From Nitrosomonadaceae bacterium (GTDB taxonomy: Bacteria; Pseudomonadota; Gammaproteobacteria; Burkholderiales; Nitrosomonadaceae), in the NCBI GenBank assembly GCA_919902515.1, contig CAKKRD010000025.1, forward strand, positions 1-64,000: a DNA stretch of 64,000 nt. Direction: 5' to 3'. This document shows positions 5,831 to 55,815 of the stretch, in pieces. Position 1 is the first letter of the stretch, and each line of letters begins with the position of its first letter. A program made the position numbers and the translations under genes. A model generated the notes under the pieces. That model saw nothing but the letters and a program-made list of their open reading frames with translations, had not been told where the DNA came from and ran no database searches.

Positions 5831-6664
5831 ATGAACGACCCCTTGCCCAAACCTAGTTGGCTTGAACGCCTGAGTGCGCTGCTGCTGCGCGAACCGGGTG
5901 ATCGCGAACAATTGGTGGCATTGCTGCATTCTGCGTATGAGCGCGATCTGCTTGATTCCGATGCCCTGAGTATGATCGAGGGCGTGATGCAGGTCTCCGA
6001 AATGCAGGCACGCGACATCATGGTGCCGCGTTCGCAAATGGATGTGATCGACATCAGTGAAACCCCGGATAAATTCATTCCATTGATGATCGAAACCGCC
6101 CACTCGCGTTTTCCCGTCACCGAAAATGATAAAAACAATGTGATCGGCATCCTGTTGGCAAAGGATCTGCTGCGCTACTACGCCGGAGAGGAGGAATTCA
6201 ACGTACGCGAGATGCTGCGCCCGGCGGTATTCATCCCCGAATCCAAGCGGCTCAATGTTCTGCTCAAGGATTTTCGCAGCAATCGCAATCATATGGCCAT
6301 CGTGGTGGACGAATATGGCAGTGTGGCGGGACTCGTGACCATCGAGGATGTGCTGGAGCAAATCGTCGGTGAAATCGAAGATGAGTATGATTTCGACGAG
6401 GCCGAGGACAACATCGTGCAGGACACGATTGGTCATTACCGCGTCAAAGCCATTACCGAGATTGCCGATTTCAACCAAACGCTGATGGCGAAATTCGACG
6501 ATGAGGATTACGACACCATCGGCGGCCTGGTGCTGAACAAGTTTGGCCGCCTACCCAAGCGTGGCGAGTCGGTCATGATCGGCGACTTCAAATTTACGGT
6601 GCTGCACGCCGACAGTCGCAGATTGCATACGCTGCTGGTTGAGAGAATCGGGGGCGAGGATTGA
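5831..6664 (+). CDS. corC: CBS-pair CorC/HlyC family protein (YbeX)
   Basis: A 277-residue cytosolic protein with a tandem CBS pair (about residues 65-190, including RDIMVPRSQMDVI and VDEYGSVAGLVTIEDVLEQIVGEIEDEYD) and a C-terminal CorC/HlyC domain (about 200-275). There is no DUF21 membrane domain, so this is the short YbeX/CorC type. Its name comes from a role in Co/Mg efflux in enterics; later work links YbeX to ribosome metabolism, consistent with the ybeY neighbourhood. Its stop overlaps the lnt start by four bases. Confidence 0.92.
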   Translation: MNDPLPKPSWLERLSALLLREPGDREQLVALLHSAYERDLLDSDALSMIEGVMQVSEMQARDIMVPRSQMDVIDISETPDKFIPLMIETAHSRFPVTENDKNNVIGILLAKDLLRYYAGEEEFNVREMLRPAVFIPESKRLNVLLKDFRSNRNHMAIVVDEYGSVAGLVTIEDVLEQIVGEIEDEYDFDEAEDNIVQDTIGHYRVKAITEIADFNQTLMAKFDDEDYDTIGGLVLNKFGRLPKRGESVMIGDFKFTVLHADSRRLHTLLVERIGGED

Positions 6665-8208
6665 ACCGTAAGGATTCGAGAATCGAGAATCAGTCAGCAA
6701 AAAGTAATCTCCGTTCCAGTTTAATTATTGTTTTTGTTCTCGGTGCGTTTACCGTCCTCGGTTTCGCACCGTTCTATCTTTTTCCCATTCCGGTTATCAC
6801 GCTCGCACTGCTGCTTCATTTCTGGCGCAAGAGTGCGACGCCACTGCAAGCAGCTTTGCTGGGCTTCTGTTTCGGCATGGGTTTATTTAGTGCGGGGGTG
6901 ACCTGGATTTACGTGAGCCTGCACGATTTCGGTGCGATGCCGATGCCCATCGCAGTGTTTGCCCTGATCGTGCTCTGTGCCTACCTTTCGTTATTCGCCA
7001 CACTGACAGGCTGGTTGCTGACAAAGCTGCGTATCGCCGCACCCGCAGTCTGGTCGTTGACTGCTGCTGCGCTGTGGGTATTGTCCGAATGGCTGCGCAG
7101 CGTGCTGTTCACCGGTTTCCCCTGGCTGACTTTGGGTTATTCACAAGTCCCTGCCAGTCCTCTGGCAGGCTTTGCTCCGCTGCTGGGAGTCTATGGCGTT
7201 TCACTGATGCTGATACTGAGCGCCGCATTCCTGTGCCTGTTTGTTGAGCTTGTTGAAAAAGGAATGCGCACCCGGCGCTATGCACTGCCTCTGCTGGCAA
7301 TATGGGTTACGGGTTTCGGCTTGCAGCAGATCAGTTGGACTGAACCACAGGGTGAGCCGGTAACAGTGAGTTTGTTGCAGGGAAACATCTCGCAGGATCT
7401 GAAGTGGCGGCCGGATCACGTGGTGAATTCGATGGATATTTATGCCGGGCTCGCACTGGAAAGCAGCAGCCGCCTCATCATCACACCGGAAATTTCGGTG
7501 CCGCTGTTTCGCAACGAAGTACCCTGGGGCTATCTGGCGCAACTTGCCGAGCATGCCAAGCAGAATGATGGCGATATTCTTGTCGGCATGGTTGAGACAT
7601 CTGCTGGAGGCAAAGAATACTACAACACCATGTTCAGCTTCGGCACTGCTCCCGATCAGAGTTACCGCAAGTTTCATCTGGTCCCATTTGGTGAATTCAT
7701 CCCGCTAAAACCTGTATTTGGCTGGGTCATCAATGTGCTGCAAATTCCGCTGTCAGACTTTTCCCGCGGGGGGCTTGATCAGCGTCCGATGAATCTGGCC
7801 GGACAACGCGTGGCGGTAAATATCTGCTACGAGGATGTGTTCGGTGAGGAAATAATCAACCAGTTGCCGCAAGCCACGCTGCTCGCCAATGTCAGCAATG
7901 ATGCCTGGTTTGGGCGCTCCATTGGCCCGCGCCAGCACTTGCAGATTTCACAGATGCGCGCACTGGAGACCGGCCGCTACATGCTGCGCGCCACCAATAC
8001 CGGCGTCACTGCCATCATCGATCAACGCGGCGTAGTGCTGCAGGAAGCAGAAATATTCACCACTACTGCGCTGCACGGTTTGGCGCAGGGATATACCGGT
8101 GCGACGCCGTATGTCCACTTTGGCAACAGTTTGATACTGGGACTCGCCGGCTTGTTACTGCTTATCGGCTTGCTGCCGGCATTTCGCAGCACGCGCAAAA
8201 CCCTGTAA
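6661..8208 (+). CDS. lnt: Apolipoprotein N-acyltransferase Lnt
   Basis: An inner-membrane enzyme that adds the third acyl chain to the N-terminal cysteine of lipoproteins before Lol sorting. Several N-terminal membrane helices (about residues 18-225) precede a periplasmic nitrilase-like domain and a final helix near 490-508. The catalytic triad is visible: E277 ([10 protein letters not shown]), K337 ([12 protein letters not shown]) and C389 (NICYEDVF). The length, 515 aa, is normal. It starts at TTG 6661, overlapping the corC stop. The first 15 or so residues ([14 protein letters not shown]) come from a GATTCGAGAATC-like repeat and are probably not conserved. Confidence 0.95.
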
Positions 8209-8255
8209 AATCCCGGCAATCACTAATAACCATTGTTGTTTCGCCCAGCACCCTC

Positions 8256-9161
8256 ATGCCCACATTCCAGGAAATCATTCTCACCCTGCAACACTATTGG
8301 AACAAGCAGGGTTGCGCGTTGCTCCAGCCTTATGACATGGAGGTAGGCGCAGGCACCAGCCATACCGCAACTTTCTTGCGCGCATTAGGGCCGGAGCCGT
8401 GGCAAGCTGCTTACGTGCAACCTGCGCGCCGCCCCAAGGACGGCCGCTACGGCGAGAATCCAAACCGTCTGCAGCATTACTACCAGTTTCAGGTGGTACT
8501 GAAACCCGCGCCAGCCAACATCCTGGAACTGTACCTTGATTCGCTGAAAGAACTGGGTTTTGACCTGAAGCAAAATGACGTTCGCTTTGTCGAGGACGAT
8601 TGGGAGAACCCGACACTGGGCGCGTGGGGACTGGGCTGGGAAGTATGGCTGAATGGCATGGAAGTCACGCAATTCACTTACTTCCAGCAAGTGGGCGGCA
8701 TCGACTGCAAACCGATCACCGGCGAAATCACTTATGGCCTGGAACGGTTGGCGATGCATCTGCAAGGCGTGGAAAGCGTATTCGATCTGACCTGGACGAA
8801 AGGGCTCACCTACCGCGATGTATACCACCAGAACGAAGTCGAACAATCGGCCTACAACTTCGAACACAGCGACGTGGAGTTTTTGCTGCTGGCTTTTGGC
8901 AAACACGAGCAACAGGCCAAATATCTGATGGAACAACAACTGGCATTGCCGGCTTACGAGCAGGTACTGAAAGCTGCGCACAGCTTCAATTTACTGGATG
9001 CACGCGGGGCGATTTCCGTCACCGAACGTGCCGCCTACATCGGGCGCATTCGCCACCTGGCGCGCAGCGTCGCGCAAGCCTACTACGAGAGCCGCGAACG
9101 CCTGGGCTTCCCGCTGGCGCCGCGCGAGTGGGTGGCGCAGATGCCAGAGAAAGCGACATGA
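8256..9161 (+). CDS. glyQ: Glycyl-tRNA synthetase alpha subunit
   Basis: The catalytic alpha chain of the bacterial alpha2beta2 glycyl-tRNA synthetase, which activates glycine and charges tRNA-Gly. The whole 301-aa protein matches the family: [25 protein letters not shown] at the start, class II segments [18 protein letters not shown] and [23 protein letters not shown]. It overlaps glyS by ATGA, which fits coupled synthesis of equal amounts of both subunits. Confidence 0.98.
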
Positions 9162-11419
9162 ACATGACCACAAAAAGCCTGCTGGTCGAGTTGCTGGTCG
9201 AAGAACTGCCACCCAAAGCACTCAGGAACCTAGGTGATACCTTTGCCAAGGACCTCTATGATAGTTTGAAAGAATTCGATCTATTGGAAGAGGCAAGTCG
9301 CCCCACTGCCTTCGCGTCTCCACGTCGACTTGGCGTACATATCACCCACGTTCGTTCAAAATCACCAGAGCGCACGGGGAAAAAGAGACTCATGCCGTCA
9401 GCGATCGCGTTCACTTCAGATGGCAGTTGGAGCGAAGTACTTCAGAAGCGCCTCGCGAAAGATCAGATTTCTAAGATGGATATTGACCGGGGAGACTTTA
9501 TCCTTGTGAAATCTGTTGAAGGCTCGACTGAGTATGTTTTTCTTGAAGAAAAAAATGAGGGCAATTCTCTATCTTGGTACCTTGGTCTAGCGTTAATTGT
9601 CGCACTTCGATATCTGCCAATCCCGAAAGTAATGACTTATCAACTTGCAGACGGCTGGACCGATGAAAAGTTTGTACGCCCGGCACATGGGTTGGTCGCG
9701 CTGCATGGCGCAGAGATTGTGGAGTCGGTTAGCGCACTGGGACTGGATGCCGGACGCGAAACGCAAGGCCATCGCTTTGAGGCCAGCGTGAATCCGGTGG
9801 TGCTCAAGGATGCAGACAGCTACGCGCAGCAACTGGGAACAGAGGGCGCGGTCATTGCCAGTTTCGCTGCCCGCCGCGCCGAGATTGCCAGGCAACTTGC
9901 CGCTGCTGCAACTAAAGAAAATCTCAGGCCCATCGCAGATGAAGCCCTTTTGGACGAAGTGACTGCTTTGGTTGAGCGTCCCAATGTGCTGATCGGAGAA
10001 TTTGATGCTACATTCCTCGAAGTGCCACAGGAATGCCTGATTCTGACCATGAAAACGAATCAGAAATATTTTCCGCTACTGGATGCCAACGGCAAGCTCA
10101 CTAACAAATTTCTGATCGTGTCCAACATCCGCCCCGCAGATGCGAGTCTGGTGATCAGCGGTAACGAACGCGTGCTGCGAGCGCGTCTTGCCGATGCGAG
10201 ATTTTTCTTCGATCAGGATAGGAAGAAGCCACTGGACTCGCGCGTACTCGGTCTGGCTAAGGTGGTATACCACAACAAGCTGGGTAGCCAAGGTGAGCGC
10301 GTAACGCGGGTGCAAGCCATTGCACGTGCCATCGGCCAGCAATTGAGGGGGGATGCTCTCGCCCTGCAAGCCGATCAGGCAGCATTACTGGCCAAGGCCG
10401 ATTTACTTACCGACATGGTGAGTGAATTCCCCGAGTTGCAAGGCATCATGGGTCGCTATTACGCGCAACACGATGGAGTGAATGACGACATTGCTTACGC
10501 CATCGAGGATCACTACAAACCGCGTTTCGCGGGCGACGAGTTGCCGCGCAATATGGTCGGCATCTGTGTGGCGCTGGCAGATAAACTGGAAACACTGGCC
10601 GGCATGTTTGGCATCGGGCAAATACCTACCGGCGACAAAGACCCATTTGCGTTGCGCCGCCATGCACTGGGTGTTGTGCGTATGCTGATCGAGAAAGAAT
10701 TGCCGCTTGAACTTGGCAATCTTGTTGAAACAGCATTTGCAATTGGGTCCAACCCAGAGACCTATGCAAACCACCAAAAGGAGCGGATGAGCTTGGCTAT
10801 GGCTGAAGCTCGTCCGCAAGCCTTAGGAATAAAAGTAGCGGCTACTATGACGGTAATGCCTGGGCAAGCGAATGATGCAATAAAGCTGTCGGTGATGACA
10901 TTTATCTATGACAGATTCTCTGCAAACTTGCGCGACCAAGGTTACAGCGCACAGGAAGTAGACGCGGTTCTGTCGTTGCGACCACAATTATTAGTTGAAG
11001 TACCCAAACGCCTCGCTGCAGTGCGTGCTTTTTCCGCGTTGCCGGAAGCGGCTGCGTTGGCTGCCGCAAATAAACGGGTGGGTAACATCCTGAAAAAGGT
11101 CGAAGGTAACTTTTCCCTTCGACAAGCTCAGGGCGAACGGTTTGAGATTGACACTGGGCTGTTGCAAGAGCCAGCCGAGCAAGCCTTGCATCAAATATTG
11201 AGCCAGATCGCACCCAAGGCCGAAGCAGCTTTCGTGGCAGGCGATTACACCGCTTCATTGCAAGCCTTGGCTGCGTTGAAAGAACCGGTGGATACGTTTT
11301 TCGACAAGGTGATGGTCAACACCGAGGATGCGGCGCTGCGCGCCAATCGCCTCACGCTGCTGCTGCGGTTACAACAGGCGATGAATCGCGTGGCCGACAT
11401 TTCCAAGCTGGCTACCTGA
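9158..11419 (+). CDS. glyS: Glycyl-tRNA synthetase beta subunit
   Basis: The tRNA-binding beta chain of glycyl-tRNA synthetase. Recognisable blocks include [20 protein letters not shown] (start), [85 protein letters not shown] and [14 protein letters not shown] start at ATG 9158, which overlaps the glyQ stop; the frame is open upstream but only inside glyQ. At 753 aa it is longer than the roughly 690 of E. coli. Two stretches (about residues 21-161 and 521-591) are poorly conserved, look AT-richer, and the second holds about 35 extra residues. Residues near 653-661 (SLRQAQGER) are encoded by an interspersed repeat. Confidence 0.95.
11116..11140. repeat. Interspersed repeat read in frame inside glyS
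   Basis: CTTCGACAAGCTCAGGGCG followed by AACGG is a common interspersed element in environmental proteobacteria, usually intergenic. Here it sits inside glyS, translated as SLRQAQGER, in a loop region between KRVGNILKK and the C-terminal conserved blocks. Confidence 0.6.
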
Positions 11420-45000: not shown

Positions 45001-48000
45001 TCATGCTACCGACCATATCGCTGACAGCAGCTCCGCTTGTGCCAACACCGTTTTCGTCGCCTCCTCCTGCAAATCCGGCGGGTAGCCATGCTTTTTGAGG
45101 ATGCGTTTCACCATCACTTTGATTCTGGCGCGCGCACTTTCACGGACAGTCCAGTCGATAGTCACACTCTTGCGCACCTGGGTTACAAGCTCGGTGGCGA
45201 TGACTCTCAACTCGGCGCTGCCCATCGCTTGCACCGCACTTTCGTTGGCAGCGAGTGCATCGTAGAAGGCAATCTCGTCTTCGTTTAGACCAAGGTCTTT
45301 GCCACGTTTGGTGGCAGCGTCCATTTCCTTGGCTAGTTTGATGAGCTCCTCAATCACCTCTTGCGTGGCGATGGCGCGATTGTGATAAGCGTTGAGCGTG
45401 CTCTTCAGCATCTCGCTGAACTGGCGGCTCTGCACCAGGTTGCGCACCGAACGCAATTTGATCTCGTCCTTGAGCAACTTTGCCAGCAACTCAGCGGCGA
45501 CGTTCTTGTGTTTCAGCCCGCGCACCTCGGCAAGGAATTGGTCAGAGAGAATGCTGATGTCCGGCTTCTTCAATCCGGCAGCGGTGAAAACATCGATGAT
45601 GCCTTCGTCGGCCATGATCGCCTTGGACACGAGCTGGCGTATTGCGGCGTCGATCTCTTCCGGTGGGCGTTGCGTACCGGAGGTCTTTGCGAGCTGCGCC
45701 TTGATCGCCTGAAAGAAGGCAATATCGTCGCGCAACCCGATAGCTTCATCCGTTGCGGCACACAGCGCAAAGGCGCGGGAGAGGTCAGTCACTACCTGCA
45801 TGAAACGTTGCCTGCCGTCCTCCTGTTGCAACACGTGCTCCCATCCAGCGGGGATCAGGCCCAGGCGTTCGGCAGACGTGCCGGTGGTCCACTTGTCCCA
45901 GTTGAAACCGTGCATGATGGCGCAGGCGACTTCGTGTTTTTCCTGCATCGCCGCGATGGCTTGCGCGGTATCGATACTCGGGTTGCCCTGGCCGCCGCTC
46001 TCGGTGTAAGTGGCGAGCGCGTGTTTCAGTTGATCGGCAAGGCCGAGGTAATCCACTACCAAGCCGCCGGGTTTGTCTCGAAACACGCGGTTCACGCGCG
46101 CAATGGCCTGCATCAGGCCGTGGCTGCGCATCGGCTTGTCGGCATACATCGTGTGCAGGCACGGCGCGTCGAAGCCGGTCAGCCACATATCGCGCACGAT
46201 CACGATGCGGAACGGGTCTTTGCTGTCCTTGAAGCGGTTGGCGAGTTCGCGTCTACGTTGCTTGTTGCGGATATGCTGCTGCCAGTCGGGACCGTCGTCG
46301 GCACTGCCGGTCATCACGATCTTCACCACACACGCTTGTTTTTTCTCGGCCTCGATATCGTCGTCCTTGGCACTGACCCAGTCAGGACGTAGCTTGATAA
46401 TGGCGTTGTAGAGGTCTACGCAAATGCGGCGGCTCATGCACACGACCATTGCCTTGCCGTCCATCGCTTCGAGGCGACGTTCGTAGTGCTGCACCAGGTC
46501 TGCGGCGATGAGCGCGACACGTTTTGGGTCGCCAACCAGCGCCTCCAGTGCGGCCCACTTCGATTTCAGTTTCTGTTTCTTGTCTTCTTCTTCACCCTCG
46601 GTGATCTCGTCGAACTCCTCGTCGATCTTCGGCAGCGCGGCCTGGTTCAGTGCCAGCTTGGCGATGCGGCTCTCATAATAAATCGGTACCGTCGCCTTGT
46701 CCGCCACGGCGCGCTGGATGTCGTAGATGCTGATGTAATCGCCAAAAATCGCACGCGTGTTGGCATCATTCTTCTCGATGGGCGTGCCGGTGAAGCCGAT
46801 AAACGACGCATTCGGCAGCGCATCGCGCAAGTTGCGCGCGAGGCCGTCAATCAGGTCGTATTGGCTGCGGTGCGCTTCGTCGGCGATAACGACGATGTTT
46901 CGCCGCGATGATAGCGCCGGCATCTTCTCGCCCTTTTCAGGCATGAATTTTTGTATCGTGGTGAAGACCACGCCGCCGCTGGCCACTTGCAGCAGTTCAC
47001 GCAGCCGCTCGCGGCTATCGGCCTGCACCGGCATCTGGCGCAGCAGCTCGTGGCAGCGCTGAAACTGGCCGAAGAGTTGGTCGTCGAGATCATTGCGGTC
47101 GGTGAGCAAGACCAGCGTCGGATTTTGCATCGCCGGATGCCGCACGATGCGCGCGGCGTAGAACAGCATGGAAAAACTTTTGCCCGAACCCTGCGTGTGC
47201 CACACCACCCCCGCGCGGCGGTCGCCCGGTTTACCGCCGTGCATCCTGCCCGCCCAGTAGGCGCCCAAGTCTTGGTGAAAGTGTCGATTATCCGCCATGC
47301 CCATACCGCTCGCGCGCACCGTTTCCTCCACGGCGGCGTTCACCGCATGGAACTGGTGATAACCCGCGATGATCTTGTGCAGACGGTCGCTGTCCGTGTC
47401 TTCTTCAAACACGATGAAATGCTGGAGCAGGTCGAGGAAGCGTCTCGGCTCGAACACCCCGCGCACCAGCACCTCCAGCTCCAGCGCAGTCTTCGGCGCA
47501 TCGCCCTCGCCGTCTATCGTGCGCCACACCTTGAACCACTCCTGGTTAGCCGTCAGCGAGCCGATGCGCGCATTCATGCCATCGGACACCACCAGCACCT
47601 CGTTGTAATGAAACAGGCCACCGATCTGCTGCTTGTAGGTTTGCAGTTGATTGAACGCCGACCAGATCGTCGCATCCTCATCCGCCGCATTCTTCAGTTC
47701 GATCACCGCCAGCGGCAAGCCGTTGACGAAAACCACGATGTCCGGCCGCCGATTGTTCTGGCCTTCGATTACCGTGAACTGGTTCACCGCCAGCCAGTCA
47801 TTGTTCTTGGCGTTATCAAAATCCACCAGCCGCGCATGATCGCCCGCGATGCTGCCATCCGCGCGCCGGTATTCCACCAGCACACCATCGCGCAGCAGGG
47901 CGTGAAAGTTCCGGTTGGTCTGTGTGGGCGACGGCGTGCCGACCCGCAGCACCTTGCGCAGCGCATCTTCCCGCGCCTCTTCGGGGATGGTCGGATTCAA

Positions 48001-48168
48001 TCGTAAGATTGCATCGCGCAACCGCCCCACCAACACCACGTCGCCGAACGAATCGCGCTCCGCCGCTGGTTCGCCGGGAGCCATGTGCGGTCCGTGGCCG
48101 ATGGCATAGCCCAGCTCCCCGAACCAAGTCAGGGCTGCGTCTTCGACGATAGATTCGTTGAGGCTCAT
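45001..48168 (-). CDS. hsdR: Type I restriction endonuclease subunit R
   Basis: The translocase and nuclease subunit of a type I restriction system. An N-terminal PD-(D/E)xK nuclease region ([21 protein letters not shown], about residues 143-163), then a superfamily 2 helicase: Walker [16 protein letters not shown] (about 326-340), DEAH box [12 protein letters not shown] (about 427-438), [14 protein letters not shown], and helicase C-terminal [19 protein letters not shown]. It ends in the C-terminal HsdM/S-binding region. At 1055 aa it is full length. It overlaps rhuM by ATGA. Its first 32 codons resemble the relic at 50393-50539. Confidence 0.97.
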
Positions 48169-49163
48169 GGTTTCTTGCCCTCGATTCGTTTGATCTCCCT
48201 GTCGAAATCCGAGATATATTCCGCGTCCTGCCGCTTACGATAAATCTCATATTCCCCTTCGGCTTTGAGCTTCGCTTCCAGCGCGCTCACCTTGCCCTTG
48301 TCCTGGAGTATCGGGTAGTTCGACAACTCAAGGAAGCTGTGCAGAAATCCCACCCAATCGGCCATTTTCATCAGGATGCCCCGCTCGGCGCGGTTCTCCG
48401 CCAAATCGAGGTAGGCGGAGACGATCCGATTCAACTCCTTTACATGCGCCTCACTCAGATAGTTCTTCGCCACCACCACATCGGACTTCAGAATCTTCCC
48501 GCCCGGTGCGTGCTTCCACGTCGTCAGCCCCATGTAGATTTTTGTCGCATCTGCGGAAACGTAGATTTTTTCCGCCGCCGTCTGCCCGGTGATCGCCCAG
48601 TGAAGTTTGTTCTGCACCGAGGCAAAAAACTCCTTTGTCATCGGTACGTCGCCGCTGTAGTCCACCGAGAGCGCATAAATATCGGTGATCTTCTGGTAAA
48701 ACCGCCGCTCACTGGCGCGGATTTCCCGGATGCGTTCTAACAACTCATCGAAGTAATCTTTGCCGAAGACCCGCTTGCCCTGCTTAAGGCGTTCGTCGTC
48801 CATGACAAAGCCCTTGATGATGAATTCCTTCAGCGTCTTCGTCGCCCAGATGCGGAACTGTGTTGCTTGGTAGCTGTTGACCCGATAACCGACGGCAATG
48901 ATGGCATCGAGATTGTAGTAACGGGTCTGGTAGTTTTTCCCGTCTGCGGCAGTTGTTTCCAAAATGGAAATAACTGAATCCTCCACCAGCTCCCCCGCTT
49001 CAAAAATGTTCTTCAGGTGCTTGTTGATCGCCGGCACCTTGACGGCAAAAAGCTCCGCCAGCGCCTTTTGCGTCAACCACACCGTCTCTTCCTTGAAGAA
49101 AACATCCACCTTCACCGCCCCGTCCGGCGCGGTGTAGAGAAGGAATTTGTCTTGCTCGCTCAT
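48165..49163 (-). CDS. RhuM family protein
   Basis: A 332-residue protein of the RhuM ('virulence protein RhuM') family: [35 protein letters not shown] (N-terminal DNA-binding-like domain), [63 protein letters not shown], and a C-terminal helical part with [15 protein letters not shown]. Such genes are often inserted in type I restriction operons. The function is unknown; regulatory or toxin-related roles have been proposed. A perfect 10-bp inverted repeat lies just upstream. Confidence 0.88.
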
Positions 49164-49210: not shown

Positions 49211-49412
49211 GCCGTCCCCACGCTCAGCTCCCCGAGACAATTCAGAACAGAATCAACCACGATGGATTCTCTTAACTGGCTCATTCAGGTTTGCGTTTAA
49301 ATAAGCAACTTGTTGAAAATAAATGCGTTAGTTGACATAGAGGATACTTGCTCCGGTTTGCTATTAAATAAGAATGCGACATCTTCGACGATGGGTTCAG
49401 TGAAGACCAATG
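49211..49412. other. Spacer between the rhuM-like and DUF3644 genes
   Basis: About 200 bases, AT-richer by eye than the flanking genes, with no recognisable ORF. With the palindrome, it is the only sizeable gap in the operon, so an internal promoter for rhuM-hsdR is likely here. Confidence 0.4.
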
Positions 49413-50396
49413 TCATCGGTATACCCCGGCATTCTCATTGCAATGCTTGCGCACTTCCGTGAGCCATGCGTCATACCAATACCACGTCTTTGAAATCTGA
49501 ACACCGTACCCCTTCGAGGAATTCCTTGCGTCGCAACTTTTCCAAAGGTCAGTGTGCTGTGCCATCCCGAACTTTGGAAAACCATCAGCCTTCACCTTAG
49601 CCACTATCTGCGAGGGTAGCCACTTTGGACGTTCAATCTCACGAATCACTGCATATGCGGCATTAGCCGTCTTGGCGATCTCGGAATCCGCCTTGACGAA
49701 CGTGATGACCTGATCTGCCTGATTCGGATGATTCGTGGTCTTCGGTACAAAGATCACGCGGTAAGCAAACTTTGCACTCGCAAACTCATCAGACGTTAGT
49801 GCACCGTCGAACCCCTCAATGTACTGCTTGATATGGCGCGGCAGCCCCTCCTGTTGCTCAAGCGTATCGACCTGCTCCTGGCTGAGAGACGAGAATTGCA
49901 GGCTAACCGCGAGGTGCTTGGCGATGCCGTACTCTTCGCCGAACAGTGAAGCTGCTGCATCATGATAGTTGATGCAGCAAGCCTGAAAGCGGGCACTCAG
50001 GAGATCGTCGATCCGCGTGGTCATTTGATGTTCGATTTCGTGCCGAAGACCGATCAGGAACCTTAAGTTCTGAACTACCTCACGCTCAAGAGGGCACTGC
50101 TCCTCATTCAAGCACCGCTCCAGTTCCCAATGCTTGAAGGCACCGTTCTTGGTGCGGTCATACTGTTTCCTCTTCGCTCCTTGAGTGAAGTACCTGTAAT
50201 TAACCTTCTCGGCGCGGTAGTACGCATGGAGAAGATATGTCCACGCGATGTTCATCAGGACAATGTAGGTTTCAGACTTGAACGTTACATTCGGATTATT
50301 GAAGATCTGAACTGCCGCAAGCGCAGCTTCGCGAGATTTCTTTAGAAGCTCTTCCTTGACGGAGAATACTCTGCGAACGCGCTTGGCGGTGCTCAT
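49413..50396 (-). CDS. DUF3644 protein with HEPN-like RHEIEH motif
   Basis: A 327-residue protein that I recognise as DUF3644 from its N-terminal half (KEELLKKSREAALAAVQIFNNP, SETYIVLMNIAWTYLLHAYY, HWELERCLNEEQCPLEREVVQNLRFLIGLRHEIEHQ, SARFQACCINYHDAA). RHEIEH near residue 118 fits the Rx4-6H motif of HEPN-fold RNases, so an abortive-infection-type RNA-cleaving role is possible; this is inference. The C-terminal half (about 200-320) ends in VQISKTWYWYDAWLTEVRKH and is unassigned. Its ATG overlaps the stop of the truncated hsdR leader ORF, indicating translational coupling. Confidence 0.8.
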   Translation of the reverse strand: MSTAKRVRRVFSVKEELLKKSREAALAAVQIFNNPNVTFKSETYIVLMNIAWTYLLHAYYRAEKVNYRYFTQGAKRKQYDRTKNGAFKHWELERCLNEEQCPLEREVVQNLRFLIGLRHEIEHQMTTRIDDLLSARFQACCINYHDAAASLFGEEYGIAKHLAVSLQFSSLSQEQVDTLEQQEGLPRHIKQYIEGFDGALTSDEFASAKFAYRVIFVPKTTNHPNQADQVITFVKADSEIAKTANAAYAVIREIERPKWLPSQIVAKVKADGFPKFGMAQHTDLWKSCDARNSSKGYGVQISKTWYWYDAWLTEVRKHCNENAGVYR

Positions 50397-50539
50397 GGTG
50401 TTGCCTCAGCCACATATGGTTCACCGGCCTTCACCCGCAGATCGCCGGGGGCCAGGTGCGACCCATGACCGATGTCATAGCCCAGCTCCCCGAACCACGT
50501 TAGGGCGGCTTCTTCGACGATGGATTCATTGATGGACAT
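50393..50539 (-). pseudogene. Truncated 5' end of a second hsdR
   Basis: A 48-codon frame starting [20 protein letters not shown], 9 bases after the DUF262 stop. Its first 32 residues match the start of the complete HsdR ([20 protein letters not shown]) with 6 differences; after APG the match ends and 16 unrelated codons follow to a stop overlapping the DUF3644 ATG. It is the scar of an hsdR allele that once followed the DUF262 gene. Confidence 0.85.
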
Positions 50540-50547
50540 GGCGCGGG

Positions 50548-52332
50548 TTACTGCTTCTCAGGATTTGGGACGTTCCAGATTTCGCGGGCCATGCTCCCCA
50601 GCTTGGCTTGTCGGGAAATCACCGCCTCCTCATTCCAGACGGCAAACGGTTCGAGTTCTCGAACAGCTCGGTCGATGCTCGTGTTCGCCCCAATCTTCGG
50701 ACGCTCAGAAATGGCGTGAACCAACAACAGTTTGGACTGCGGATAGACTAACCGTTTCTTCGAATACGGCTTGTTGCCCAACGACGCATTGATCGGCTTC
50801 TCGACCAAGACAAGGTTACCCAAGCGATTGATGATTGCTGGGTCCGTGGCCTTTCCAAATTCATCGAGTGCTTCCTGACATGGTTTTTGCGGCTGGATGT
50901 GCTCGATCTGAAACTCGCTCGCTACATAGTTCTTCAACCACCTCGTGCCTTCTGTTTCGCCGTAAGCGCTGACCTCTACATGTTGGTTGAGCTTCGCGAG
51001 AATGTAGCGCAGGCGATAAACCTGAAGTTCTTCGGAAGTCATTCGCTTGAATGCGTCGTCGAATCTGCCGGATAGGGCAGCCTTTGACGGTTCGATGCGT
51101 TGCCGCAGGAACAACTGCAACTCTTCCTCTGTTTTCGCCTTCTTCAGTTCAGGTGCCCATCTGGCGAAGTTGCGCTCGAAATCACGAGTGTTCTCCCGGC
51201 TCGCCACGTAGATGAAAAACAAGTTTTCGACTTCGCGAACCAACTGGCTGAACAGCACATCCGGGAGGTGCCTTCCTGCGAGCAACAGGATCAAATGCTG
51301 CCTTGCTGCGCTGCCCCCAAGGAATTGCAGGCTCTGCAATTCGGGGCGTTGCTTCCCGGATGGGTCGCATCCTTTGAGGAACAGCCCGTAGGCTTTTGCG
51401 GCGTCGAGCAGCTCTTTCGCGAACTTCAGCGAGTCCTCCGCATAGCCGCACAACTTCTGATTCTTCGAGAACCACCCGTAAATCTCGTCCTCCCTCAACG
51501 CTTCCACGCTATAGCGGCTAAAGATGAAATAACGAAGGAATCGAAGGGGCTTCTCCCCAGCATCGAAGATGGTGTCTTGAAGTTCCTTCCAAATCTTCTT
51601 CAGCGCCTCAAACTCATCCTGGTCCGACTTCATGAACAGTAGATTCTTCAACAGGTCCATGGAATCGAGTCCAACACCACGGTCATTGATCGTCTCAAAA
51701 ATCTTGAGCGCCTTGGCGACGTCTTCCGTTTGAATGCGGATGAGCTTCACCTTGTTGATGAAATAGCCGTAGAAAACCCGAAGGGCGTCCGTGTCGTCAC
51801 CAAACTGATGGGTGAGAAACGCCGTGACTGACGAATAGGCATTCAGAATGTTCCCAATGGACCGGGTCTTTTGGCCATCCGCAGGATCTTCTTTCTTATC
51901 GGCGATTCCAACAAGCACATTGCCACTGTCTTCATACTGCAAATCCAGCCGATACCGGAACACATCGCGTCCGTGAGCATCGGAAGATGTCGTCGCGATT
52001 TGGGGAGCAAGGGCTCCAGGTGCCTTGTCGCCGAGAACTTCGAATCGGTCCCGAATCGCACACAAGGTCAGGAAGAGCGTTGTCATCCGCTGCTGACCAT
52101 CAATGAGATCAAAAACGCCACCCTTGCCTGGGCACACGACGATGCTGCCGATGAAGTATTCCGGGGCTTTCTCCGGGTCAGCTCCATTGAGCTCGCCGTA
52201 GATGTCGGTCAGCAACTGCTCAACCTGCTCCGACTGCCAGACATATTCTCGCTGATAGTCGGGGACGGAGTAGAACCCCTGAAATACTTCGGAAATTTTG
52301 ATGTCCTGACTCTGAATGCTCTGTGTGCTCAT
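50548..52332 (-). CDS. DUF262/DUF1524 (GmrSD-like) protein
   Basis: A 594-residue protein of the GmrSD/type IV restriction kind. The N-terminal DUF262 domain has VPDYQREYVWQSEQVEQLLTDI and the ParB-like FDLIDGQQRMTTLFLTLCAIRD (near residue 80). The C-terminal DUF1524 region has an HNH-like arrangement: FQIEHIQPQ (near 480) and INRLGNLVLVEKPINASLGNKPYSKKR. GmrSD enzymes cut modified phage DNA using nucleotide hydrolysis; activity here is inferred from domains. It overlaps the hsdS stop by ATGA. Confidence 0.9.
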   Translation of the reverse strand: MSTQSIQSQDIKISEVFQGFYSVPDYQREYVWQSEQVEQLLTDIYGELNGADPEKAPEYFIGSIVVCPGKGGVFDLIDGQQRMTTLFLTLCAIRDRFEVLGDKAPGALAPQIATTSSDAHGRDVFRYRLDLQYEDSGNVLVGIADKKEDPADGQKTRSIGNILNAYSSVTAFLTHQFGDDTDALRVFYGYFINKVKLIRIQTEDVAKALKIFETINDRGVGLDSMDLLKNLLFMKSDQDEFEALKKIWKELQDTIFDAGEKPLRFLRYFIFSRYSVEALREDEIYGWFSKNQKLCGYAEDSLKFAKELLDAAKAYGLFLKGCDPSGKQRPELQSLQFLGGSAARQHLILLLAGRHLPDVLFSQLVREVENLFFIYVASRENTRDFERNFARWAPELKKAKTEEELQLFLRQRIEPSKAALSGRFDDAFKRMTSEELQVYRLRYILAKLNQHVEVSAYGETEGTRWLKNYVASEFQIEHIQPQKPCQEALDEFGKATDPAIINRLGNLVLVEKPINASLGNKPYSKKRLVYPQSKLLLVHAISERPKIGANTSIDRAVRELEPFAVWNEEAVISRQAKLGSMAREIWNVPNPEKQ

Positions 52333-53714
52333 GGTGTGATTGTTGTTTCCATTTGAACTGATAGTTTCCCGCTCAGCAGCTTCGGCAGCAGCGCGTCTCG
52401 GATGGTAGCGAGGGTACGGGATTGGTGGAGGTTGGCAGTGATTTGTGCGTAGAGCGGCGAAACTTTTTCGGTGAAGGCGGCCATCAATTCTTTCGGTGGC
52501 AACTCAACGAGAATTGGGCGGAAGTTTTGTTTGCTGATTTCGGCGAAGGTCGTACCAGTGGCGCGGCTTTCTATTTCAGCCATGTTTGTCTGGCACCAGT
52601 TCAGCATAAAGAAATTTGAAGCTCGCTCGTTACACTTGATTGCGATGAAGCCCTGATTGATGGCGACAGGCATTGCGGCGATGGCGAGGTAGCCAACTGG
52701 AGCGCGTGATGACAGCAGGAGAGTTCCAGCGGGCAGCAGGCCGGAAGAAATCTTGGCGATGCCTGCATCGGTAATTTTGCGGTTGGTGTCGAGGAGGATA
52801 GGCGCCTGGAGCGAAGAGAAATCTTTTGGCGTAGTCCAGTGGTGTGTGCCGTCTTCCCAGAACTTTGGCTCTGCGGTGCTTGGCGTGCCACCGCCAACGC
52901 ATTCGACAACTTCACCAACTGGTTCAACCGTCCACCCCTGCGGAATATGTCCGAGGGGGGAGTCTTGGAAGTGGGCGGGGAAAAGGGCGGCGGTGGCGGC
53001 GTCGAGGCCATCGGGTTTGCGGCCATCGAGTTTGGCGCGGACGGGATCGAAATCCACGAACCAGCTTTGGAACAATGCCCGCGCCATTGCCTCCAGTGTC
53101 GCGTTCATCCGCCGGTTCAACTCGATCTTGTCGTCCAGCGTTCCAAGGATGTGGGCGATGGCTTCGCGTGTGCCCTTCGGTGGAATGGGAATTGGAAGCT
53201 TTGCCAAATCACGAAGATTAAAAGTCGCTTGAACGGTCGTCGTCGCCCACATGCGAATACAGTGCTGGATAAACGATGAACGAAGACAGATGGAAACCCA
53301 CAGGCTACCGGGGTCTTTTCGCACGGGAATCACGCCAACGGCGCGGGCCACGTTCCAACCTCGAAAGCCATCTGGGACGATTGCCACCTCGCCAAGCGTT
53401 CCGACGAGAGTCAAAAGAACCTCGCCGCCTCGCAAGCGGGAACGCTGGAACTTTGCTTCGATGCCGGACTCGACTTTCATCATATCTGATGTGTCTATGC
53501 GCCCATTACGAATGTTATTCACGCGAACGATGGGAACACCGTCGGTTGTCTCGCTTCCGGGCTGGACGATGCCGTAGCATACGCCTTGATCTTCAACGAG
53601 GTCGCCAAGCGACTCGTAGCGCCAGCCATTCGGGATGGCTGGCAGTTCATCTGGCAGTGGCAGCTCTTCAGGGCTAGCCGCCATGCCCCAGCCCTTCAGA
53701 TTTTCCTTCATCAT
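52329..53714 (-). CDS. hsdS: Type I restriction specificity subunit S
   Basis: Determines the bipartite DNA target of the type I complex. Two target-recognition domains, each starting with an IPxGW-type motif (AIPNGWRYESLGDLVE and HIPQGWTVEPVGEVVE), are each followed by a conserved helical spacer: PPKGTREAIAHILGTLDDKIELNRRMNATLEAMARALFQSWFVDFDP and FTEKVSPLYAQITANLHQSRTLATIRDALLPKLLSGKL. It begins at MMKENLKG (461 aa); nine further codons upstream (MSCFCVCRL) are within the preceding ORF and unlikely. The recognised sequence cannot be predicted from this. Confidence 0.95.
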   Translation of the reverse strand: MMKENLKGWGMAASPEELPLPDELPAIPNGWRYESLGDLVEDQGVCYGIVQPGSETTDGVPIVRVNNIRNGRIDTSDMMKVESGIEAKFQRSRLRGGEVLLTLVGTLGEVAIVPDGFRGWNVARAVGVIPVRKDPGSLWVSICLRSSFIQHCIRMWATTTVQATFNLRDLAKLPIPIPPKGTREAIAHILGTLDDKIELNRRMNATLEAMARALFQSWFVDFDPVRAKLDGRKPDGLDAATAALFPAHFQDSPLGHIPQGWTVEPVGEVVECVGGGTPSTAEPKFWEDGTHHWTTPKDFSSLQAPILLDTNRKITDAGIAKISSGLLPAGTLLLSSRAPVGYLAIAAMPVAINQGFIAIKCNERASNFFMLNWCQTNMAEIESRATGTTFAEISKQNFRPILVELPPKELMAAFTEKVSPLYAQITANLHQSRTLATIRDALLPKLLSGKLSVQMETTITP

Positions 53715-53952
53715 TAACCTGCAAACGCAAAAACACGACATACTCGTTCATCACGTCTACTGCCACGAGCTTGCCTTCCTGCAAGGCGGTCAGATGTTCT
53801 TTGGTCAGGGTCATGATTTCGCCACCCCAGCGTTTGCCAAAAGGCTGTTCGGTTTCTTCCACATCATAGGGCGCATCGACAATGACGAGAGCCGGTTCGG
53901 TTTCAATCGTTGAGACTTTGGCTGCCGTGCTGATGGTTTGTTTAGAGGTCAT
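53674..53952 (-). CDS. Small ORF between hsdM and hsdS
   Basis: A 92-residue acidic protein of no family I know. It has [60 protein letters not shown], with the last strand-like stretch resembling a small beta domain. It overlaps the hsdM end by 11 bases and the hsdS start by about 40, so it is probably translated within the operon. Its role is unknown; being inside the modification cassette, it may influence methylase assembly or activity. Confidence 0.65.
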
Positions 53953-55555
53953 ACCCGAGTCCTTGCAGGTTTTTCCGAATCGCCCTCTCCAGCTTCGCGG
54001 ATTCGGTGAATTGTTCGTTCAGCTCGGCCACGAGGCGGGTCATCTTTTCCTCGAAGGGTTCGCCGTCGTCTTCGACTTCTTCTGCACCGACATAGCGGCC
54101 CGGCGTGAGCACGTAACCGTGTTGTTTGATTAGATCAAGGTCGGCGGATTTGCAGAAGCCGGGGATGTCGGTGTATGCCCATGGATTCCCGCTTTCGCGG
54201 GAATGACGGCTTTCGAGTGAATCGCCGCGCCAGGCGTGGTAGGTGCTGGCGATTTTGGCGATGTCGGCATCGGTCAGTTCGCGATGCACACGATCAATCA
54301 GCGTGCCGAGTTTCCGCGTATCAATGAACAGGGTCTGTTTGCGGCGATCACGAAGCTTGCCGTCATTTTTTCTTTTTGTGAGAAACCACAGGCAGACGGG
54401 GATCTGCGTACTGTAGAAAAGCTGGCCGGGTAGTGCCACCATGCAGTCCACCAGATCAGCTTCGATAATCGCTTTACGGATGTCGCCTTCGCCGGATTGG
54501 TTGGAGGACATGCTGCCGTTGGCGAGAACGAAGCCGGCGTAGCCATCGGGTGCCAGGTGATGAATGAAGTGCTGCACCCAGGCGAAGTTGGCGTTACCCT
54601 TGGGTGGCACGCCGTATTGCCAGCGCACGTCGTCATCCATGCGATGCCAATCGGAGTCGTTGAAAGGCGGGTTGGCGATGACGAACTGCGCCTTGAGGTC
54701 TTTGTGCAAGTCGCGCCGGAAGGCGTCTGCCTGCTCAGGGCCAAAGTCGGCCTCGATGCCGCGAATGGCAAGGTTCATGATGGCGAGGCGGCGAGTGGTA
54801 GCGTTGCTCTCCTGGCCGTAGATACTGAGGTCGCCGATACGCCCACCGTGTTCGAGCACGAATTTTTCAGACTGCACGAACATCCCGCCCGAGCCGCAGC
54901 AGGGATCATAGACGCGACCCTTATAGGGGCTAAGCATTTCGACGATAACGCGAACGACGCAACTGGGGGTGTAAAACTGGCCACCGTTCTTGCCCTCAGC
55001 GCTGGCAAAGCGGGTGAGGAAGTATTCGTAAACGCGGCCGAGCAGATCAACCGAGCGGTGCGATTTGGCATCGTTCCCTTCCGTGGCAGTTGCCACGAGA
55101 GTGATGGTGCCGATTAGATCGATCAGTTCACCGAGGCGGTGCTTGTCGAGCGCGGGGCGGGCATAATCTTTCGGGAGCACACCTTTGAGGCGCGGGTTGT
55201 CACGTTCGAGGGCGACCATCGCGTCATCCACCACTTTGCCGATGGTGGGCTGCTTGGCCGCAGCCTGGAGCTGTGACCAGCGCGCTTCCTTGGGCACCCA
55301 GAAAACATTCTCAGCGCGGTATTCGTCAGCATCTTCGGGGTCGGAGCCTGCGAACTCGCCTTTGCCAGCGATGAGTTTGGCACGCATTTCCTCGAAGGCA
55401 TCGGAAATGTATTTGATGAAGATGAGGCCAAGGACAACATGTTTGTATTCCGCCGCATCCATGTTGTTGCGCAGCTTGTCAGCGGCAAGCCAGAGCTTGG
55501 CCTCAAAACCGATGTTGGCGGCGGAGTCGTTGTTCTTCGTTGTTGTTTTAGCCAT
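53942..55555 (-). CDS. hsdM: Type I restriction modification subunit M
   Basis: The N6-adenine methyltransferase subunit. It has an N-terminal helical domain ([41 protein letters not shown]), SAM motif [16 protein letters not shown] (about residue 218) and catalytic NPPF in [13 protein letters not shown] (about 296). I start at MAKTTTKNN (55555), preceded by AAGGGAAG. At about residues 449-458 the sequence reads [10 protein letters not shown], a translated copy of a widespread ATTCCCGC palindromic repeat, just before the conserved C-terminal [11 protein letters not shown]. Confidence 0.96.
54183..54209. repeat. ATTCCCGC palindromic repeat inside hsdM
   Basis: ATTCCCGC (54185-54192) and GCGGGAAT (54197-54204) form a perfect 8-bp stem around TTTC, flanked by ATGACGG. 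This resembles the dRS3-like or 'HSRESGNP' intergenic repeats of many proteobacteria, here read in frame within hsdM. Confidence 0.75.
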
Positions 55556-55815
55556 CAGACTTCCCTTCAATTACCTCTTATTCCAATTTCATTTCATCAG
55601 TGACACTTCGTTGATATCCTTACTCGCGCCTTGCCGTACTAATTGTACTGTCTGCGGCGTTCGTTCGTCATCGCCTCGTTTCACTTTCGAACTGGAATTG
55701 GAATTAGAGGCTGGCCATGCCGAAGCCAAGCAAGACATGGATGCCAGCAGGGAATGCTAACAGATTTCGACAGTTTACTCGCTAATGCGAGAAGCGTAAC
55801 CGAGTCTAAGGAACC
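55556..55815. other. Upstream region of hsdM, probable operon promoter
   Basis: About 260 bases between the island's first gene and the right repeat. An interrupted palindrome, GTACTAATTGTAC (55636-55648), lies 80-93 bases upstream of the hsdM ATG and could be an operator. A plus-strand frame ending at 55760 (LELEAGHAEAKQDMDASREC) has no support. No integrase or att-like short repeat was seen. Confidence 0.4.

Follow-up and report, generated by a model that had tools for sequence, protein, structure and literature searches.

The operon and its DUF3644 protein

In the 64,000-nt stretch of Nitrosomonadaceae DNA that was analysed as a whole (further referred to as the window), the list of open reading frames and their Pfam matches reveal an operon of the order HsdM-HsdS-GmrSD-DUF3644-RhuM-HsdR around positions 49413-50396, with all genes on the minus strand. 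The genes of the type I methyltransferase (hsdM, 53942..55570; PF02384, E=1e-104, and PF12161, E=4.6e-27) and of the intact specificity subunit (hsdS, 52329..53741; PF01420, E=6.1e-28) are followed by three accessory genes and by an intact gene of the restriction subunit (hsdR, 45001..48168; PF11867, E=3.3e-130, as well as PF18766 and PF04313). The first accessory gene, which the end of hsdS overlaps by 4 nt, encodes a single-chain GmrSD-like modification-dependent nuclease (50548..52332; PF03235, E=9e-38, and PF07510, E=2.1e-18; PADLOC Orf5, 403 bits, and HEC-06, 263 bits), the second is the DUF3644 gene (49413..50396), and the third is a RhuM-family gene (48165..49163; PF13310, E=1.3e-108) overlapping hsdR by 4 nt. 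The embedding of DUF3644 in a type I restriction operon, as claimed by the first-pass annotation, is confirmed by its position between hsdS and hsdR together with the GmrSD and RhuM genes. A 92-aa reading frame (53674-53952, minus strand) overlaps both hsdM and hsdS; Pfam gave nothing for it at E 0.1, and its sole NCBIfam match is weak and far below the cut-off. Reading frames of 140-146 aa occur in the hsdM-hsdS gap of two related loci (L004 and L002).

The DUF3644 reading frame is intact, starts with ATG and encodes a protein of 327 aa, for which structure modelling predicts a HEPN domain and a C-terminal winged-helix-like domain. The family assignment made earlier is upheld by the match to PF12358 (residues 16-197, E=2.7e-61), which is the sole Pfam domain of this protein at E 0.1, and PADLOC PDC-S19 matches it at full length (residues 5-323, 537.7 bits). 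NCBIfam offers no name for it (best E 0.072, far below the cut-off). The chain does not end at YGVQISKTWYWYDAWL, as had been read, and runs on with TEVRKHCNENAGVYR. A single DUF3644 copy was found in the source assembly (1.88 Mb, 65 contigs, 82% complete).

Relatives were collected by scanning genome contigs with six exact peptide patterns, which gave 181 loci, the best 80 of which were kept; a scan of viral sequences with the same patterns added 3 more, to 83 loci in all. As one of the patterns was HEIEHQMT, this set leans towards the motif discussed below. Hosts of the best 80 of 181 and of the three loci of the viral scan are very different bacteria and also archaea. The window protein and those of 79 of the 83 loci were aligned (80 sequences), and its identity to them is 48-89%. 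Values of dN/dS of 0.07-0.11 between the window gene and five close relatives (L032 was left out because of an unverified offset) indicate purifying selection and a strong constraint on the protein.

Certain relatives have an additional gene nearby. In four Pseudomonas loci (L047, L048, L049, and L052), a gene of 268-269 aa follows DUF3644; the one member scanned matches DUF3644 weakly (E 2e-4, below the cut-off). Possibly, it encodes a degenerate partner or an antitoxin. In L043 (9231-9992), DUF3644 overlaps by 4 nt with a DprA/SLOG-type gene (PADLOC PsyrA/ShosA match), which may represent a different pairing.

The motif RHEIEH (residues 118-123; 50028..50045, minus strand) is of the Rx4H type. 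E16, K20, R118, E120, E122, and H123 do not vary among the 80 aligned sequences, and the residue that follows R118 is a histidine (H119) in 79 of 80. The Rx4H pattern is also retained, as RHEIEH, RNKIEH or RNKLEH, in 5/5 further homologues of 27-54% identity, which were obtained as tblastn matches in plasmids and in one phage record. According to the excerpted text of PMC3710099, a predicted RNase site of HEPN proteins comprises a polar residue (mostly N, D or H) after the arginine and an upstream Ex3[KR] motif; the window family has the complete signature, namely Rx4-6H, the polar H119 and the upstream E16xxxK20. The HEPN spacing of LIGLRHEIEHQ, pointed out by the first-pass annotation, is present, and the conservation of its arginine and histidine, on which that annotation had staked the HEPN reading in advance, held in 80/80 sequences.

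In the full-length model (mean pLDDT 74.3), the N-terminal domain comprises helices 13-33, 40-62, 105-121, and 134-152, and RHEIEH is located at the end of the third. It had been described as all-helical, which proved inexact, as the model contains strands 70-72 and 77-79. Upon re-alignment of this domain with 999 PDB chains by VIA-align, ranks 1-8 were all taken by HEPN structures (Z 8.2-9.6), with 2hsb (Z 9.6), MntA-HepT 6m6w (9.4), 5yep (9.1), and Csm6 6tug (8.5) among the leading ones, followed by a protein of unknown function at rank 9 (Z 7.5) and by unrelated bundles from rank 10 (Z 6.5); since in helical bundles Z under about 13 may reflect a common arrangement alone, it is only the ranking that favours HEPN. 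We take 5yep and 1ufb to be HEPN proteins. The structures 1wwp and 2hsb are among the HEPN structures of PMC3710099 (excerpts). Foldseek searches of PDB gave no match with E below 0.6, and HEPN structures surfaced only on re-alignment; its search of viral models gave nothing at E <= 0.001. A sequence search of PDB with the DUF3644 protein returned weak unrelated matches only (the best, E 0.012, to MTA/SAH nucleosidase), and a comparison with the PF05168 profile, which matched in just 3 of 41 genomes, was dropped. With HEPN structures as the best matches of the N-terminal domain, the fold comparison suggested by the first-pass annotation came out in its favour, and the assignment of DUF3644 as a HEPN-type protein is well supported as a prediction.

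The C-terminal part, when modelled alone, forms a confident block (pLDDT 91-98) from residue 260 and adopts a winged-helix-like fold at residues about 257-326; the domain was delimited in this separate model to residues about 258-326 (49419..49625, minus strand). The nearest solved folds include the DNA-binding domains of NmlR, RacA, and SoxR, with Z of 6.3-7.5 that denote a weak match. A search for a REase-fold C-terminal domain of the EC042_2821 type showed that the model matches winged helices and that the region preceding them, residues about 190-257, is of low model confidence. Pfam analysis of the C-terminal part of 48 sequences gave scattered weak names only.

A HEPN fold with a domain of this kind might also belong to a non-catalytic regulator, which would bind RNA or protein and tune the expression or assembly of the restriction complex. 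The resemblance of the C-terminal domain to DNA-binding folds is in line with such a function, as is the proposal that some HEPN domains devoid of the motif are probably RNA-binding (PMC3710099, excerpts). Unlike in the motif-less HEPN families, the active-site signature of DUF3644 is invariant in 80/80 sequences, with Rx4H in all five further copies, which makes a purely regulatory role improbable.

Genomic settings of the relatives and the putative role of DUF3644

Annotation of the flanks by blastp places type I genes near 50 of the 83 loci, BREX genes near 9, and neither near 24, of which 10 have a flank of under 3 kb on one side. With tblastn, an HsdR match was found within the fetched flanks (up to 10 kb) of 41/83 loci; a profile of the window-type HsdR start, which is a different measure, had only 39 matches in 299 whole genomes of the phylum. 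HsdS lies directly upstream of DUF3644, ending within 70 nt of it, in 26/83 loci, and in 25 of these 26 the gap between the two genes is from -17 to +7 nt, with an overlap of exactly 4 nt in 7 (starts as called by a simple ORF search). On the other side, the distance from the DUF3644 stop to an hsdR start, intact or relic, is at most 20 nt in 25/84 cases (83 loci and the window) at a score of at least 10 bits, the maximum for reversed sequences being 3.9 bits there. HsdR is directly downstream in 18 loci, in two of them (L032 and L051) as a relic. In type I loci that were not selected for DUF3644 (L088-L123), the end of hsdS is at least 0.67 kb away from hsdR in 26 of the 28 in which it was found, and therefore an accessory gene in the hsdS-hsdR slot seems to be usual for the HsdR family of the window.

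Outside of type I operons, DUF3644 copies of Phaeobacter, Catenovulum, and Flavobacterium plasmids have no restriction-modification gene annotated in the stretches covered by the PLSDB gene tables, which are incomplete; three of four such plasmid proteins are longer than that of the window (390-417 aa). L024, one of the BREX loci, encodes in this order PglX, a 431-aa protein with no match in Pfam or PADLOC, DUF3644, PglZ, and BrxL. A family of proteins of 430-432 aa, represented in L024 at 8712-10007, directly precedes DUF3644 in 7 of the 9 BREX loci (L014, L024, L030, L034, L039, L054, and L059). An MNT antitoxin is absent beside DUF3644 of the window, the neighbours of which are GmrSD and RhuM, and no MNT family was detected by Pfam among 28 neighbour proteins scanned in other loci, which are a small part of all neighbours.

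The explanation that we consider the best, and to which we would give about an even chance, is that DUF3644 is a single-gene effector of abortive infection, in which a HEPN RNase is combined with a sensing C-terminal domain and which acts as a second line behind restriction. It builds on the predicted fold, the conservation of the motif, the position in the operon, purifying selection and the cassette borders observed in the window. The R118/H123 pair of the N-terminal domain probably cuts RNA, and the winged-helix-like domain probably senses a signal, either DNA or a partner protein, and probably holds the RNase off until infection. The gene would be a cassette carried between hsdS and hsdR, and because the gene ends there are close together or overlap, its translation is probably coupled to that of the restriction genes; DUF3644 coupled in this way would form a second defence line behind DNA cleavage. 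Toxicity of the released RNase and protection against phages would be expected of such an effector.

The position of DUF3644 directly behind hsdS in 26/83 loci or directly before an hsdR start in 25/84, with several 4-nt overlaps, would also be consistent with a guard that resembles PrrC: an RNase silenced by bound HsdMS(R) and freed when a phage inhibits or overwhelms restriction. PrrC itself is a precedent, and a PrrC-like backup was proposed in 2013 for HEPN proteins linked to restriction-modification systems (PMC3710099, excerpts); the close coupling with hsdS in many phyla could indeed mean dependence on the restriction complex. On the other hand, the family occurs also in BREX loci, behind PglX and the 431-aa protein, it is devoid of the ABC ATPase of PrrC, and the cassette scars described below suggest exchange between operons, for which functional coupling is not required. 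Since there are BREX-linked copies and plasmid copies with no annotated restriction-modification gene, a strict dependence on such a system is weakened, and a PrrC-like trigger, although possible, is not favoured; we regard the guard as a rather doubtful, secondary explanation. Because of the breadth of contexts (type I, BREX, plasmid, and the 24 partnerless loci), which points to an autonomous effector, we prefer the self-contained effector to a guard of a particular restriction complex.

Hybrid scars and the proposed loading of cassettes

Between the GmrSD and DUF3644 genes of the window there is a scar composed of two core gene fragments. Its first half (50442..50541, minus strand) is a relic of the hsdR 5' end (33 aa), which matches 48071-48170, at the start of the real hsdR, with 84% identity over 100 nt and scores 55.4 bits with the HsdR N-terminal profile (10.7 bits for the best reversed-sequence control). 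The copy of the hsdR start runs in frame into the second half, a relic of the hsdS 3' end (50397..50448, minus strand; LRVKAGEPYVAEATP followed by a stop codon), which aligns with the tail of hsdS that precedes DUF3644 in L003, and the stop codon of which overlaps the ATG of DUF3644 (ATGA). Homology to L003, L005, and L007, as detected by blastn, begins at one common base, 50448, and the homology of the hsdR part to L004 reaches 7 nt past it; the stretch covered by both, CCGGCGA, resembles a short-homology join.

The gap between DUF3644 and the RhuM gene (49222-49412, minus strand) holds two further hsdR-start relics. The shorter one, MTLVFTEPIVEDVAF (49376..49416, minus strand; repeat D5, 75% over 28 nt), has an ATGA overlap with the DUF3644 stop and no match of at least 5 bits in the profile search; the other, RESIVVDSVLNCLGEL (49222..49269, minus strand; repeat D2, 73% over 48 nt), is more decayed and precedes RhuM. 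The segment 49288-49372 matches L008 just behind its Schlafen-AlbA cargo of 469 aa, and therefore the window operon may once have carried a gene of the Schlafen-AlbA type that has since been lost.

Similar scars are present in other operons. In L007 the arrangement is repeated in frame, with an hsdR start of 15 aa and then the hsdS end DTLLTKLISGELRV, and in L041 a short hsdR start (5.6 bits) precedes an out-of-frame hsdS end (21 bits). These two contain both parts together, as the window does; in L072, where a truncated RhuM continues as an hsdS end, they are placed separately, and most relics consist of only one of the two, an hsdR start or an hsdS tail. In the orphan locus L003 (Nitrosospira), in which no intact hsd gene was found, DUF3644 is accompanied by an hsdS tail, a broken hsdR start and 44 aa of an hsdM start. 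Because this hsdM piece is retained, the locus may represent an entire operon that has decayed rather than a cassette in transit.

To count relics, the hsdR start was compared by tblastn with its own upstream region (up to 9 kb). An intact hsdR start was present in 69 loci, of which the 67 with enough upstream sequence were tested; 35 of these (the window among them) contain DUF3644, and 32 were chosen by the hsdR start alone from 299 genomes of the phylum. The latter come from 36 unselected regions, all devoid of DUF3644, from which L114 and L117 (no intact hsdR start) and L099 and L106 (no upstream sequence) were left out. Same-strand relics at E<0.01 were found in 10/35 DUF3644 loci vs. 1/32 unselected ones, and the same search of reversed DNA gave no matches. 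One match on the opposite strand (L091, E 0.008) was taken as chance. After a profile search for additional hsdS tails and hsdR starts had been included, relics were found in 13/21 multi-cargo DUF3644 operons (L002, L007, L008, L016, L018, L026, L027, L032, L041, L051, L056, L072, and the window) vs. 0/14 single-cargo ones and 3/32 unselected loci (L090, L112, and L113). The difference between 13/21 and 0/14 (one-sided p 1.4e-4) is partly expected, as multi-cargo operons have more room for relics, and it is based on sorting by hand; L026 and L027 look like one operon, which makes a stricter count of 12/20, and the single-cargo L070 has just 980 nt upstream.

Profile noise was rejected as the source of the relics: the relics are in neither profile, and reversed controls reached 10.7 bits at best for the window scar, 3.9 and 7.2 bits for hsdR starts and hsdS tails, and 7.6 and 12.1 bits in the search for extra relics. 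Many of the intact hsdS genes that went into the hsdS-tail profile lie directly upstream of DUF3644, so that the 31/84 upstream hsdS-tail matches are partly a matter of construction. That relics occur wherever hsdR does was also rejected, given 3/32 unselected and 0/14 single-cargo loci.

An equivalent was found in one of the 9 BREX loci. In L059, the first 201-202 nt of pglZ occur as two copies (90-91% identity), each ahead of one cargo set. Behind each copy, about 67 shared codons lead into the final 30-35 residues of PglX, with a 4-nt overlap with the start of the next cargo. The middle of about 67 codons is shared by 6144-6653 and 8200-8709 as if one scar had templated the other. In the same search, none of the other 8 BREX loci showed more than one copy of the pglZ start. 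The pglZ-start/pglX-end scars of L059 reproduce the type I arrangement with the core genes that flank the slot in BREX.

We infer from these patterns a cassette-by-cassette loading, without an integrase, into restriction operons. In this model, in which we have moderate confidence, integrase-free cassette arrays stacked by recombination would occupy the interval between hsdS and hsdR in type I systems and that between pglX and pglZ in BREX. The unit would consist of the 3' end of the upstream core gene, the cargo and the 5' end of the downstream core gene of another operon, and one of its sides would be inserted through homologous recombination within the downstream core gene, the opposite side through an illegitimate join at a short homology. 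A hybrid scar, in which the start of the downstream gene is fused to the end of the upstream one, would be left by every such event. These scars may in turn serve as homologous sites for later insertions, and a defence stack would thus grow within one operon. It is the hybrid pattern of the scars that suggests that restriction operons, and perhaps those of BREX, are loaded with defence cassettes step by step.

The scars might alternatively result from internal tandem duplication and decay within a single operon, with no loading from other operons. Such an origin would agree with the similarity of the relics to the hsdR of their own operon, which is the closest one in 5 of 7 comparable loci (L051, L032, L072, L016, and L007) and ranks second or ties in the remaining two (the window and L026). 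Duplication alone does not account for the different cargo that parts the repeats, GmrSD, DUF3644, and RhuM in the window and AbiP2-type reverse transcriptase, SIR2, Schlafen-AlbA, short pAgo, and PsyrT elsewhere. The unit of hsdS tail, DUF3644 and first hsdR bases is, moreover, common to the window, L003, L005, and L007. We therefore find it unlikely that the scars arose in this way, and loading of cassettes from other operons is the preferred explanation.

The scars provide borders at the level of single bases, a possible order of stacking and a recombination model that can be tested and that may span two systems, type I restriction-modification and, in a single locus, BREX. Searches gain a handle as well, since a gene between such scars is a candidate defence gene, and relics may mark lost cargo. 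The invariant predicted catalytic residues make DUF3644 itself amenable to simple toxicity and phage tests.

Relation to known defence systems

The first-pass annotation considered DUF3644 to be a candidate for an undescribed mechanism. DUF3644 was named as a new HEPN family by Anantharaman et al. in 2013, and in the excerpted table of that paper (PMC3710099) the row of EC042_2821, annotated "overlaps with DUF3644", lists a conserved Rx4-6H motif and occurrence in restriction-modification operons. As the HEPN prediction and this linkage had already been published, the family is not undescribed. The EC042_2821/DUF3644 family shares with the window protein the Pfam family, the motif and the operon context; EC042_2821 itself is listed with REase, ZnR, and wHTH fusions, and the C-terminal domain of the window protein models as a winged helix. 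No mention of cassette borders was found in the excerpts of PMC3710099, and they are present in the window. PDC-S19, matched by the window protein over its whole length, is a phage-defence candidate of PADLOC, and no paper under that name was found in the literature searched.

The anticodon nucleases PrrC (EcoprrI) and RloC have a HEPN-type nuclease, and PrrC, like DUF3644, is encoded in a type I operon (sources in excerpt). Both carry an ABC ATPase domain, in contrast to the window DUF3644 protein (Pfam at E 0.1).

While the HEPN nature of DUF3644 is known, the newer part is its mode of arrival and the hybrid scars. In the literature searched, no description of hsdR-start/hsdS-end scars was found; the study of embedded defences by Payne et al. 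2024 lies outside this coverage and may overlap. The cargo of the slot in DUF3644 operons comprises GmrSD, RhuM, Schlafen-AlbA, AbiP2-type reverse transcriptase, SIR2, short prokaryotic Argonaute, PsyrT, and IrrE-like peptidase. According to the excerpts covered, DarTG2 is encoded between hsdS and hsdR, in a slot called a potential recombination hotspot (PMC12255303), the TgvAB defence genes are embedded in a type I operon (PMC11411939), and so is RloF of Campylobacter (as cited in PMC4619093). In these excerpts, neither such scars, nor base-level borders, nor a BREX equivalent were found for DarTG2, TgvAB, and RloF, in contrast to the present study; the type I operon slot that these three systems occupy is the same as that of DUF3644.
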